From Geomonas subterranea (GTDB taxonomy: Bacteria > Desulfobacterota > Desulfuromonadia > Geobacterales > Geobacteraceae), in contig NZ_CP077683.1 in the NCBI RefSeq assembly GCF_019063845.1, positions 2,968,501 to 3,032,500 of the forward strand: a stretch of DNA of 64,000 nt, in the 5' to 3' direction. Shown piece after piece: positions 1,777-14,661 of this stretch (the first letter of the stretch is position 1; each line of letters starts with the position of its first letter). A model generated the notes under the pieces. That model ran no database searches. It was not told the DNA's origin and worked only from the letters and a program-made list of their open reading frames with translations. Both the position numbers and the translations under genes were made by a program.

Positions 1777-3414
1777 ATGGAGACCGACATTCTTGACGGC
1801 ACTGGACTCAAACTGCAACTGAGCCCGAACCAGATGTCTTTGCTGGCGCAGTACACCCCGGTCGCCCAGAGACGCGCGCTGGACGCCGGGCAACTGCGCG
1901 AGGCGATCGAGGCGTCGGGGTACGGGGAGCTCTTCATTTCCCAGGACGCCCTGGTGCAGGTGCTGCAGCGCTGCGCCGTCTCTCCGGTCGCATTCACCCT
2001 GCAGATCGGCGAGCGGCGCGACGCCACCCTCGCCCTGCAGCTCTCCGACGACATGATGATGGCAACCATGACCATCCAGCCCGCCTACGGCGGGCGCCGC
2101 ATCACCTTTGAAGAGGTGGAGCAGGCGCTCTCGCGAGAGGGGGTGGTTTGCGGCATCCTCTATGACGAGATCAAGGCCGCAGTGGAGGCGGGAGAGGCCA
2201 GCAAGCTGGTGATCGCCCAGGGAACGCCGCCCATCCCGGGGGAGGACAGCCAGTTCATCAGCCTGATCCCGGAGATGGCGACCCAGATGCCCCAGCTCTC
2301 CGACGACGACACGGCCGACTACCGGAACCTGGGCGATATCGTCAGCGTAAGCCTCGGCGATCCGCTCCTGCGGCACACCCACCCCACCACCGGCGTCCCG
2401 GGCGTCAACCTCCTCGGGGTGGAACTTCCCACGAGCGACGGGGTCGACATCCCCTTCGCGGACAACCTTACCGGCATCGCCTGCGACCTGAGCGATCCCG
2501 ACCTGCTGGTCGCCGCCATCTCAGGCTACCCGGTGATCGTGCCGCACGGCGTCAACGTCGATCCGGTCTTCAAGGTGAAGCGGGTCGACCTCTCCACAGG
2601 AAACCTCCACTTCAAGGGGTCGCTGGACATCTCCGGCGACGTCAGTGAGGGGATGGAGGTGACCGCCACCGAGGACATCACGGTGGGCGGGATCGTGGAA
2701 GCAGCCCGGATCAAGGCGGGGGGGAACATCGTGATCGCGGGGGGAGTGATCGGCCACGGCAAGGCGGTGCAACCGGGGAAGATGGTGAGCCGTCAGGAGA
2801 TGGCCCAGCTGGAGGCGGGAGGTACGGTCACGGTGCAGTTCGCCGAGAACGCGGCCATCAGCGCCGGCGGGGACATCTTCATCCGCGAACTGGCCATGCA
2901 AAGCGACCTCACCTCGGGCGGGAGCATCGTGGTCGGCGAAAAGGGGGGGCGCAAGGGGCACATCATCGGCGGGATCTGCCGGGCCATCTCACTGGTGCAC
3001 GCCGTGGTGATCGGCTCCCACGCCGGGGTTCCCACGGTCATCGAGGTCGGTGTCGATCCCGCGTTGAACCGCAAACTGGAGATGGTGCAGGAAAACCTGG
3101 CCGAGAAGCAGCGGCAGCTCGACGAACTCACCAAGACCCTGGCCTACGTCAAGGAGAACCCCGGGAGCATGGACCCCGGCCTTTTGAACCTGAAGCAGCG
3201 CATCTACACCAAATGCCAGGGAGAGCTGGCCGAGCTCACCGGCGAGAAGAAAAGACTGCAAAAGAGAATGGAGATCAACGCCCTGGCCAAGGTCGAGGTG
3301 GAACGCGACGCCTTCCTGGGCGCCCAGATCAGGATCGGGTCGAGCACCCTCCTCATCGAGGAGGACCTCACCAACCCGACCTTCACCCTGGGGGAAGAGG
3401 GGATAGCATATTGA
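1777..3414 (+). CDS. FapA family (DUF342) protein
   Basis: A 545-residue protein of the FapA/DUF342 family, whose core is a right-handed beta-helix of repeated glycine-rich turns; here this is residues about 200-420 (GGIVEAARIKAGGNIVIAGG and similar). A coiled coil follows (about 430-500, ENLAEKQRQLDELTKTL) and a short beta-rich tail. Family members bind or organise polymers and include flagellar-assembly and polar-localisation factors; the exact role is unknown. I chose ATG 1777 because GGAGGGG ends two bases before it; an upstream GTG at 1756 has no such site. coaE follows after 16 bases, so the two are probably cotranscribed. Confidence 0.8.
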   Translation: METDILDGTGLKLQLSPNQMSLLAQYTPVAQRRALDAGQLREAIEASGYGELFISQDALVQVLQRCAVSPVAFTLQIGERRDATLALQLSDDMMMATMTIQPAYGGRRITFEEVEQALSREGVVCGILYDEIKAAVEAGEASKLVIAQGTPPIPGEDSQFISLIPEMATQMPQLSDDDTADYRNLGDIVSVSLGDPLLRHTHPTTGVPGVNLLGVELPTSDGVDIPFADNLTGIACDLSDPDLLVAAISGYPVIVPHGVNVDPVFKVKRVDLSTGNLHFKGSLDISGDVSEGMEVTATEDITVGGIVEAARIKAGGNIVIAGGVIGHGKAVQPGKMVSRQEMAQLEAGGTVTVQFAENAAISAGGDIFIRELAMQSDLTSGGSIVVGEKGGRKGHIIGGICRAISLVHAVVIGSHAGVPTVIEVGVDPALNRKLEMVQENLAEKQRQLDELTKTLAYVKENPGSMDPGLLNLKQRIYTKCQGELAELTGEKKRLQKRMEINALAKVEVERDAFLGAQIRIGSSTLLIEEDLTNPTFTLGEEGIAY

Positions 3415-3430
3415 ACGGGAAGGGAGCGGC

Positions 3431-4039
3431 ATGCGTATCATAGGACTCACCGGGGGGATCGCGTCGGGCAAGACCAGCGCGGCGCAGCTGTTCGAGAAGC
3501 TCGGAGCCGCGGTCATCGACGCCGACCAGCTGGCACGGGAGGTGGTGCAGCCGGGGGAGGAGGCACTGGCGCGCATCGCGGAGACCTTTGGCGACAAGGT
3601 GCTCAACCCGGACGGCACCCTGAACCGCGCCGCGCTCGGGGGGATCGTGTTCGCCGACCCGTCGGCGCGACGCACGCTGGAGGGGATTACCCATCCCGCC
3701 ATCAAGAAGAGGGCGGAAGAGAAACTGCGGCGACTCAGGGAGGCCGGGACCGGCACCGCCTTCTACGTGGCGCCCCTGCTCTTCGAGGCGGGGATCACCT
3801 CGCGGGTCCACGAGGTGTGGGTGGTTTATCTCGACCGCGAGACCCAGATCGAGCGCCTGATGGTGCGCGACGGCCTCTCGCGCGAAGCCGCGCTGTCGCG
3901 CATCGCCTCGCAGATGCCCATGGAGGAGAAAAAGAAACTGGGGAAGATCGTCATCGACAACCGCGGCAGCAGGGAGGATCTGGAGGCGCAGGTACTGAAG
4001 CTGTGGCGGGAGGAGATAGCGGACCGGCGGCAGGGATGA
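3431..4039 (+). CDS. coaE: Dephospho-CoA kinase
   Basis: CoaE phosphorylates the 3'-hydroxyl of dephospho-CoA, the last step of coenzyme A synthesis, in the cytoplasm. The 202-residue protein has the usual family length. It opens with the P-loop GLTGGIASGKTSAA (residues 5-18), followed by DADQLAREVV and the DPSARRTLEGITHP segment typical of CoaE. GGGAG lies before the ATG. It is the second gene of a likely pair with the FapA-family gene and is followed by a strong terminator. Confidence 0.95.
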   Translation: MRIIGLTGGIASGKTSAAQLFEKLGAAVIDADQLAREVVQPGEEALARIAETFGDKVLNPDGTLNRAALGGIVFADPSARRTLEGITHPAIKKRAEEKLRRLREAGTGTAFYVAPLLFEAGITSRVHEVWVVYLDRETQIERLMVRDGLSREAALSRIASQMPMEEKKKLGKIVIDNRGSREDLEAQVLKLWREEIADRRQG

Positions 4040-4072
4040 GCCGGGGCGACACGAAATGGGTACAACGAGAAA

Positions 4073-4105
4073 GGCCCCCGCTTGCGGCGGGGGCCCTTTT
4101 TTTTT
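4073..4105 (+). terminator. Intrinsic terminator after coaE
   Basis: Perfect 9-bp stem GGCCCCCGC (4073-4081) / GCGGGGGCC (4087-4095), loop TTGCG, then C and nine T residues. It lies between the convergent coaE and IclR genes. The T-run serves the plus strand. Confidence 0.9.
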
Positions 4106-4106
4106 C

Positions 4107-4889
4107 CTATTTGTGGTAACCAAGTTTCTGCGAGATCTCCTCGCCGGAGCGGATCACCAGCGGGATCAGCTCCTTCTCCAGGCGCTCGTCGGTGAAGCGC
4201 ATCGAGGGACCGGAGATGCTCACCGCGCCGATGATGCGGCGGGTGTAGTCGCGGATGGGGGCGCCGACACACTTCACGCCGACATCCATCTCCTCGTCGT
4301 CGATGGCGTACCCCTGCTCGGCGATCACCTTCAGGTGCTTCTTCAGCTCCTCGCGGTCGGTCACCGTCTTCGGGGTGTAGCGCTTCATCTCCTTGGTGGG
4401 GAGGTAGTTCTCCAGCTCCTCGTCGGTCATGTAGGCGATCTGGACCTTGCCCGCCGCGGTGCAGTAGGCCGGCAGACGCGCACCGACGCGCGGCACGACC
4501 CTCACGGTCAGGTCGGTCTCCACCACGTCGAGGTAGACGATGTGGAACTCCTTGAGGATGGCCACGTAGGTGGTCTCGTTGCACTCCTTGACCAGCGCCT
4601 CGAGCACCGGTCGGGACTGGCGCAGAAGGCCCATCTGCTTGATGAAGGTCTGGCCCAGCTCCAGGGTCTTGAGCCCCAGGCGGTAGTTTTCCGTTACCTT
4701 GTTCTGCTCTATGTAGTTCCGGGATTCCAGAGTGGCCAGAAGCCGGAAAACGTTGTTCTTGTGAAGCTTCAGCCTCTTGCTCAGCTCGGTCACGCCCAGT
4801 TCGTCCACCTCGTCGTGGAACTGCTCCAGGAGGTCGAGTGCATGGGAGACGGCCTGAATGATGTACTCAGATTTCTCTTTTTTCGCCAT
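4107..4889 (-). CDS. IclR family transcriptional regulator
   Basis: A 260-residue IclR regulator: an N-terminal winged helix (residues about 10-70, LGVTELSKRLKLHKNNVFRL) and a C-terminal ligand-binding domain (from about 85). Position next to sfrB/coaE makes it the likely counterpart of G. sulfurreducens GSU0514, which I recall as a repressor of the succinyl-CoA synthetase genes that mutated during adaptation to lactate; that link rests on memory and synteny. The ATG at 4889 has AGGTG six bases upstream; a GTG nine bases earlier has no binding site. Its own promoter overlaps an inverted repeat (4948-4986), which suggests autoregulation. Confidence 0.85.
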   Translation of the reverse strand: MAKKEKSEYIIQAVSHALDLLEQFHDEVDELGVTELSKRLKLHKNNVFRLLATLESRNYIEQNKVTENYRLGLKTLELGQTFIKQMGLLRQSRPVLEALVKECNETTYVAILKEFHIVYLDVVETDLTVRVVPRVGARLPAYCTAAGKVQIAYMTDEELENYLPTKEMKRYTPKTVTDREELKKHLKVIAEQGYAIDDEEMDVGVKCVGAPIRDYTRRIIGAVSISGPSMRFTDERLEKELIPLVIRSGEEISQKLGYHK

Positions 4890-9751: not shown

Positions 9752-10408
9752 ATGAAGACGGCACAACTGATCGGCTCCCCGGAGCCGGTACGGATCGGCA
9801 AGATCCTCTGCATCGGGCGCAACTACGCGGACCACATCAAGGAACTGGGGAACGAGACCCCGGAGCGCCCCGTGATCTTCACCAAGCCCGCCACCAGCGT
9901 CATCGGCGCGGGGGAGGAGATCGTGATCCCCTCCTACTCCAGCGACTGCCACCACGAGGCGGAACTGGCGCTTCTGATCGGCAGGGAGGGGCGCGACATC
10001 CCGGCCGCCGATGCCCTCTCCTACCTGGCGGGGTACGCCGTCGCCATCGACCTGACCCTCAGGGACGTGCAGGCGGAGCTGAAGAAGAAGGGGCTACCGT
10101 GGGACATCGCCAAGGGGTTCGACACCGCCTGCCCCCTCTCCCCGTTCGTCCCGGCTGAGCAGGTGGCCGATCCGCATCAGCTGCGCATCACGCTCACCGT
10201 GAACGGCGAGAAGCGCCAGGACGGCGGCACCGACCTGATGATCCACCGCATCCCCGAGCTGTTGAGCTACCTCTCCTCCATCTTCACGCTGGAGCCGGGC
10301 GACCTGGTGCTGACCGGCACGCCCGCCGGGGTCGGTCCGGTCAAGAGCGGCGACCGCGTCGTCGCCGGGATCGCCGGGGTGGGGAGCATCGAGGTTTCGG
10401 TCCGGTAA
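9752..10408 (+). CDS. Fumarylacetoacetate hydrolase family protein
   Basis: A 218-residue member of the FAH superfamily, close in length to FAHD1-type acylpyruvases/oxaloacetate decarboxylases and to bacterial YcgM. Seen motifs: CIGRNYADHIKELG near the N-terminus, HHEAELALLIG (metal-binding Glu residues), DLTLRDVQAELKKKGLPW and LTGTPAGVGPV near the end. Substrate cannot be told from sequence. GGAGGAG lies directly before the ATG. It is followed after 32 bases by the UGA-containing small gene. Confidence 0.85.
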   Translation: MKTAQLIGSPEPVRIGKILCIGRNYADHIKELGNETPERPVIFTKPATSVIGAGEEIVIPSYSSDCHHEAELALLIGREGRDIPAADALSYLAGYAVAIDLTLRDVQAELKKKGLPWDIAKGFDTACPLSPFVPAEQVADPHQLRITLTVNGEKRQDGGTDLMIHRIPELLSYLSSIFTLEPGDLVLTGTPAGVGPVKSGDRVVAGIAGVGSIEVSVR

Positions 10409-10440
10409 GGAGAGCTTTACCAACAAAGGAGGTTTTTCAT

Positions 10441-10584
10441 ATGAGCAACGAGAAGAGCTGCCCCGACTGCCAGGGGCTCATGGTGCTGATGCCGGGGTGA
10501 GGTGGCCTCTTCTGGCGGTGCCAGAAGTGTGGCAAGAAGCTACCCCTAAGCGGAGACGTCTCCAAAGGGTGTGGCTGCAGCTAA
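10441..10584 (+). CDS. Candidate selenoprotein: 47-residue zinc-ribbon protein with in-frame UGA
   Basis: The frame has a very strong start (AAAGGAGG eight bases before ATG), a TGA at codon 20 (10498-10500) and then continues to TAA at 10582. If UGA is read as Sec the product is 47 residues with CPDC (7-10), Sec20 in PGUGG, CQKC (27-30) and a terminal CGC. The two CXXC pairs, 16 residues apart, form a zinc ribbon, and the second pair lies only after the UGA. Sixteen bases after the TGA begins a GGU loop on a perfect 8-bp stem (10509-10527), as in bacterial SECIS elements. Function is unknown. Alternatives are a 19-residue peptide or a point-mutated gene. A terminator follows. Confidence 0.65.
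10505..10533 (+). promoter_or_regulatory. Candidate bacterial SECIS element
   Basis: CTTCTGGC (10509-10516), loop GGT (10517-10519), GCCAGAAG (10520-10527): 8 perfect pairs. The helix can extend below an internal loop by GCC (10505-10507) with GGC (10531-10533). Sixteen bases separate the UGA from the loop. In E. coli fdhF a GGU in the apical loop at nearly the same distance is what SelB recognises. Confidence 0.65.
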
Positions 10585-10603: not shown

Positions 10604-10629
10604 AAAGGGGGCACTAAAGCCCCCTTTTT
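10604..10629 (+). terminator. Intrinsic terminator of the thiS operon
   Basis: AAAGGGGGC (10604-10612) pairs with GCCCCCTTT (10619-10627), loop ACTAAA, T-run 10625-10629. It closes the operon that ends with the UGA-containing gene. Confidence 0.85.
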
Positions 10630-14460: not shown

Positions 14461-14661
14461 CTAGTTCTTGACCACGTTGGCGGCCTGCGGGCCCTTGGCG
14501 CCCTGGACCACGTCAAAGCTGACCGAGTCACCCTCGACCAGCGATTTGAAGCCGTCCCCCTGGATGGCCGAGAAGTGCACGAAGACATCCGCGCCGTTTT
14601 CCTGCTCGATGAAGCCAAACCCCTTCGCGTCGTTGAACCATTTCACCACACCGTTTGCCAT
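14461..14661 (-). CDS. Cold-shock family RNA chaperone
   Basis: A 66-residue CspA-type protein, a single OB fold that binds single-stranded RNA/DNA. RNP1 is KGFGFI and RNP2 is VFVHFSAI; the start [18 protein letters not shown] is typical. GGAG lies eight bases before ATG. It has its own strong promoter (14745-14773), a 5' leader of about 75 bases with a very stable hairpin, and its own terminator, so it is expressed as a single gene. Confidence 0.97.

Follow-up and report, generated by a model that had tools for sequence, protein, structure and literature searches.

The NCBIfam entry NF041197, 'dual CXXC motif small (seleno)protein', stands in Table 1 of a review for the selenoprotein OS_HP3, with the motif RxU, and for 'hypothetical protein DW', with the motif GxU (PMC13188914). 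According to the deep-Sep paper, no known selenoprotein seems to be without cysteine (Cys)-containing homologues, and its authors caution that selenoproteins lacking such homologues may be discarded by their method (PMC12013277). No function for the NF041197-type family was found in the literature searched. OS_HP3 is said, in the review's table, to go back to a 2007 paper. Here we describe a related gene on the forward strand of Geomonas subterranea contig NZ_CP077683.1, at 10441 to 10584 of a 64,000-nucleotide window (contig positions 2,968,501 to 3,032,500), which is the whole stretch of DNA analysed and to which coordinates refer. We consider it very probable that this is a real selenoprotein gene, its UGA decoded as selenocysteine (Sec) by means of a hairpin, and that the product is a 47-residue zinc ribbon of a divergent NF041197-related subfamily, for which redox and FAHD1-linked roles may be inferred.

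The gene starts with ATG at 10441 and has 47 codons, with TGA as codon 20 (10498 to 10500) and TAA as codon 48 (10582 to 10584). Read with Sec at position 20, the translation is MSNEKSCPDCQGLMVLMPGUGGLFWRCQKCGKKLPLSGDVSKGCGCS. An AGGAGG ribosome binding site, read directly from the sequence, lies 8 nt 5' of the ATG (10427 to 10432), and GGAG-like sites precede the start codon in most of 29 loci inspected. The first CxxC knuckle (C7 and C10, 10459 to 10470) is encoded 5' of the TGA; the second (C27 and C30, 10519 to 10530) is reached only past it. All four cysteines are invariant in the 51 distinct genes of the subfamily. A preliminary description of the locus had given the same coordinates, ribosome binding site, TGA and TAA, which direct reading confirmed, and had correctly seen that CPDC-X16-CQKC is completed only by read-through. 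It also placed Sec20 apart from both zinc knuckles, which is likewise supported. Ordinary gene calling would probably overlook a gene so short and interrupted by TGA.

The gene almost certainly encodes a selenoprotein, and the codon table is the strongest evidence that it does. TGA occupies the Sec position in 51 of 51 distinct subfamily genes, never a Cys codon. Codons 23 to 29 (10507 to 10527) read CTC TTC TGG CGG TGC CAG AAG throughout, the sole deviation being one CAC replacing CTC, such that 20 of the 21 bases are identical in 51 of 51 genes and the remaining base in 50. Codon choice varies at every one of the invariant residues C7, C10, L16, P18, G21, C30 and G31. Pairwise synonymous difference is 0.000 in codons 23 to 29, 0.546 in 21 to 22, 0.646 in 2 to 19 and 0.734 in 30 to 47, while pN/pS is 0.33 (codons 2 to 19), 0.54 (30 to 47) and 0.48 (21 to 47), thus below 1 past the TGA. 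Only within the hairpin, therefore, are synonymous sites fixed, and selection constrains the protein both before and after the TGA. The preliminary description had named TGC, TGT or TGG in place of TGA, or homologues that stop at the UGA, as grounds for giving up its selenoprotein call; TGA was found in every distinct gene and the homologues read on beyond it. With the frozen hairpin and the coding constraint past the TGA, the call is well supported. It is highly improbable that the TGA is a true stop which leaves a 19-residue peptide followed by non-coding sequence or a regulatory hairpin. A stop codon is indeed present and the hairpin is fixed as an RNA sequence, but the downstream frame is open and under purifying selection, C30 and G31 are invariant despite varying codons, and Sec and Cys interchange at this position in the wider family discussed below. 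A swap of Sec and Cys at a single position is classically taken as evidence for Sec, and shows as well that the gene is part of a known wider family.

The candidate bacterial Sec insertion sequence (bSECIS) was assessed by folding, by published constraints and by its rarity in the window. Its apical hairpin, CUUCUGGC-GGU-GCCAGAAG (10509 to 10527, forward strand), comprises the stem arm CTTCTGGC (10509 to 10516), the loop GGT (10517 to 10519) and the stem arm GCCAGAAG (10520 to 10527). There are eight perfect pairs; the stem begins 8 nt and the loop 16 nt past the TGA. The review lists a loop of 3-9, an upper stem of 4-16 bp, G in the first two loop positions, a spacing of 16-37 nt and an energy of -7.5 or lower (PMC13188914). 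The hairpin satisfies these constraints, its 16-nt spacing being the permitted minimum. The 48-nt fold that contains it has -19.2 kcal/mol and a z-score of -1.85; since 8 of 200 shuffles fold equally well, the folding energy by itself is not striking. It is conservation (51 of 51 TGA), not folding energy, that decides that the observation is real. The geometry is rare: a TGA followed after 16 nt by a 3-nt loop with G in its first two bases, closed by at least eight Watson-Crick pairs, occurs once among the 1765 TGA triplets on both strands of the window, with 0.025 expected per window (one match in 40 first-order Markov shuffles). Covariation was unusable as proof of the hairpin because the hairpin is invariant inside the subfamily and pair counts are uninformative; the contrast of synonymous sites was used in its place. 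No Rfam family gave a match at its gathering score. The preliminary description had drawn the element rightly; it likened it to the SECIS of E. coli formate dehydrogenase. With 51 naturally occurring copies of a single frozen bSECIS, the subfamily lends itself to testing which bases SelB requires. Six TGA triplets of the window pass a looser hairpin rule (1.9 expected); the five others were rejected as selenoprotein candidates, one because it is this hairpin again, read in a different frame, and four because they lie in short unsupported frames.

The host genome (4.99 Mb, a single contig) holds all four Sec genes that the preliminary description wished to see confirmed: selA, selB (395.7 bits, cut-off 242.25), selC for tRNA-Sec (73 bits, gathering score 47) and selD (360 bits, cut-off 125), the last carrying an internal TGA of its own.

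Matches at E 0.01 or better were found in 30 of 48 genomes of the host's family. One of these, in G036 (E 0.0045, no stop), was taken as chance, no two CxxC being found on reading, which leaves 29; they include G032, whose frame is broken. G017 and G032 each gave a further, weak match that was left out of the count. Loss of the Sec system was rejected as the reason for the gene's absence elsewhere, as 16 of the 19 gene-less Geobacteraceae genomes keep selA; so do 28 of the 29 with the gene, the exception being 78% complete. Scanning a collection of 84,980 species with alignment A1 gave 110 stretches, of which tblastn confirmed 45 loci and left 65 unconfirmed. Isolates among the 45 belong to Geomonas, Citrifermentans, Geomobilimonas, Geotalea, Oryzomonas, Trichlorobacter and Geobacter (argillaceus and sp. 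AOG1), and the remaining loci are metagenome-assembled genomes, one of them Candidatus Methylomirabilota. The closest named relatives among those listed, from which the records nearest the window's own may be missing, are Geomonas species, the first three 91-93% identical in protein. The motif was recovered from 76 of 78 loci, which reduce to 52 distinct genes, or 51 without the Methylomirabilota gene, every one with TGA. The two loci that did not parse (L085, 5001-5146, and L030) represent the same gene of Geotalea toluenoxydans JCM 15764, in which TGA and hairpin are kept and the frame breaks just past the TGA; its match to the neighbouring gene described below is also in two pieces, and errors in the draft sequence are likely. 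No Cys form occurs among the 45 loci; the peptide patterns of the scan contained PGCGG, and a Cys form of the motif should therefore have matched. Most occurrences of the subfamily are in Geobacterales, the order to which Geobacter belongs, and only Sec forms were found. Relatives sought with UGA allowed, as had been proposed beforehand, are plentiful, and the companion search for homologues with Cys20 found none among the 51 subfamily genes and 20 in the wider family.

The wider family is NF041197-like. NF041197 is the best NCBIfam match of the window protein (E 1.4e-5), at 25.1 bits below the cut-off of 40; five relatives score 24.4, 24.2, 21.5, 20.7 and 20.2 bits, likewise below. These matches stop at profile position 27 to 31 of 53 and so fall short of the full profile, tail included, that we ourselves required; the paired CxxC motifs, with Sec or Cys placed at the X9/X6 spacing, are present. 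When alignment A1 was run against a sample of 395 genomes of the phylum, 15 matched at E 0.001, including three CxxC-X9-U-X6-CxxC proteins with RTU or RSU, which reach 53.0-59.6 bits on NF041197. Comparing the profile of the subfamily and the Methylomirabilota gene (alignment A2) with these three gave a probability of 97.5% and E 5.1e-12 over 32 columns. With a joint alignment, 99 of the 395 genomes gave matches at E 0.01, some of them through ordinary zinc ribbons. Its 107 matches include 7 of the subfamily itself; of the other 100, 75 were read (23 + 52) and 25 weak ones left out. The exact spacing is found in 59 of the 75 and differs in 16; the Sec position holds TGA in 39 of the 59 and Cys in 20, one of the latter (L154) doubtful. 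Only C7, C10, U/C20, C27 and C30 are invariant across 23 representatives. Five loci with other spacing were treated as ordinary zinc ribbons and excluded: L092, L094 and L095 (no stop), L091 (TAA) and L097. The NF041197-like family looks wide in the phylum (L114-L178), many members scoring weakly even on the joint profile. A direct NF041197 search gave no match in 58 relatives and none in 14 control genomes, and therefore shows no absence.

The subfamily and NF041197/OS_HP3 have in common the CxxC-X9-[U/C]-X6-CxxC architecture, a second knuckle resembling [FW]RC..CG and small size. They differ in that the subfamily has PGU-GG where OS_HP3 has RTU-R, has a short CxC tail instead of one ending in DR[LI], and has a fumarylacetoacetate hydrolase (FAH) neighbour and no Cys form found. 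Folding the RTU/RSU genes past their TGA placed a hairpin near the expected position in L096 and L090; the best fold of L093 has none there. The Methylomirabilota gene (L084, 4351-4524) encodes the Sec form GDUGGSFWRCQKCG, with the same stem and the loop GUU instead of GGU, and lies between glycogen synthase-like and metallo-hydrolase-like genes identified by eye. It is 40% identical to the window protein (alignment A4), scores 16.3 bits on NF041197 and has no FAH within its flanks. It would fit the GxU motif that the review's table (PMC13188914) gives for 'hypothetical protein DW' of deep-Sep (PMC12013277); that it is DW is a guess.

The claim that no named family is recognisable consequently survives in part: the architecture is that of NF041197 (OS_HP3), the Sec position being filled by Sec in 39 and by Cys in 20 of 59 wider-family sequences, and the gene's own subfamily sits below the cut-off. 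The label 'undescribed' is not supported as it was written, the wider family being already catalogued as NF041197. The subfamily is named nowhere in the literature searched, which largely lacked subscription papers. From sequence comparison, the gene is best placed in a divergent sister subfamily of a known selenoprotein family rather than in a wholly unknown one. It could instead be merely a distant member of NF041197/OS_HP3 (or of 'hypothetical protein DW') with nothing separate about it, a reading that we regard as somewhat unlikely though serious. The identical spacing, the profile comparison over 32 columns, the rank of NF041197 as best NCBIfam match and the seemingly intermediate Methylomirabilota gene all speak for it, but the six subfamily proteins score 20.2-25.1 bits against a cut-off of 40 that the three RTU/RSU proteins pass, the match ends at position 27 to 31 with the DR[LI] tail absent, and no wider-family locus has the FAH neighbour (0 of 24). 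As a sister subfamily, the gene and its relatives extend a widespread family by a Sec-only branch that has a recurring gene neighbour and scores under the curated NCBIfam threshold. If the branch is truly Sec-obligate, it would be a subfamily-level exception to the statement in the deep-Sep paper that Cys-containing homologues seem universal (PMC12013277); the wider family does have Cys forms.

The predicted structure has two knuckles on a beta-hairpin and would be classed as a zinc ribbon, with fold matches of middling Z. Its closest folds (VIA-align) are the ribbons of RPB9 and topoisomerase I, which are likewise two-knuckle ribbons with a beta-hairpin. Pfam matches of the window protein stay below gathering score (Zn_ribbon_TFIIB 13.9 against 22, Zn_ribbon_6 14.9 against 25). 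These two closest folds, and the weak, sub-cut-off resemblance to TFIIB-type and double zinc ribbons, are what would be expected if the ribbon bound nucleic acid or RNA polymerase and Sec served as a redox switch for that binding, an explanation that we consider improbable.

The FAH neighbour is an FAHD1/YcgM-like gene (9752 to 10408, forward strand) that ends 32 nt upstream (NF007967, 223.2 bits, cut-off 201). The best sequence match of its protein in the PDB is mitochondrial FAHD1 (6sbi, E 4e-72). FAHD1 is described as an oxaloacetate tautomerase and decarboxylase (PMC12176266), and by analogy the bacterial enzyme may share these activities. Of the 45 loci, 40 have an FAH match on their upstream side, its aligned end 23-117 nt from the start in 39 and 996 nt in one. 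The other five are L076, whose sequence begins 26 nt before the gene, the Methylomirabilota locus, and L057, L063 and L072, with none within 5 kb. In L057 an FAD-dependent reductase-like gene (3163-4854; CoA-disulfide reductase/NADH oxidase type, by eye) stands just upstream. Within the host's family, 28 of 29 loci carry FAH on the same strand, no more than 117 nt away in 27 of them and 996 nt away in one; the remaining locus, L028, starts at a contig end. Seven of the 19 gene-less genomes have FAH and 12 show no match at E 1e-40; in those seven no selenoprotein-type frame was found 3' of FAH. The association of gene and FAH has a Fisher p of 1e-6; this value includes no correction for relatedness, and two different procedures served to detect FAH. 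Farther upstream, thiG-, thiE- and radical-SAM-like genes (by eye) are unmatched in two Trichlorobacter loci (L066 and L074), where FAH persists. Most of the 24 wider-family loci in which no FAH was found had 1.5 kb flanks.

In the mechanism that we propose, SelB and tRNA-Sec would decode UGA codon 20 as Sec using the hairpin directly downstream. The two CxxC knuckles of the 47-residue product are predicted to bind one metal ion, probably zinc, and Sec20 would sit at the tip of the beta-hairpin between them, where its exposed selenol may serve redox chemistry (or the binding of a soft metal). The flexible C-terminal CxC (C44 and C46, 10570 to 10578; at least two Cys follow the ribbon in 49 of 51 subfamily genes) may provide resolving thiols, perhaps for Sec20. 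The selenoprotein would act together with the FAHD1-like enzyme encoded just upstream. Selenols bind soft metals, and Sec20 might with the tail CxC be a ligand for a soft metal or metalloid rather than a redox centre, in a small metal-buffering or delivery protein. We think this unlikely; the tail cysteines in 49 of 51 genes fit it, but the conserved neighbour is a hydrolase-family enzyme, and no search for metal or metalloid resistance genes was made. Returning to the redox proposal, its most specific form is that the Sec-obligate subfamily is the redox partner or switch of an FAHD1-like oxaloacetate tautomerase/decarboxylase in Geobacter and its relatives, which we put forward as a long shot. 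If true, selenium and redox state would be tied to oxaloacetate control in these bacteria.

Downstream of the gene, a terminator-like hairpin, GGGGGC-ACTAAA-GCCCCC followed by T5, was read directly at 10607 to 10629 (forward strand); a consensus terminator scan reported none there. An ordinary cold-shock-type open reading frame, identified by eye, lies near the locus on the reverse strand (14461-14661).
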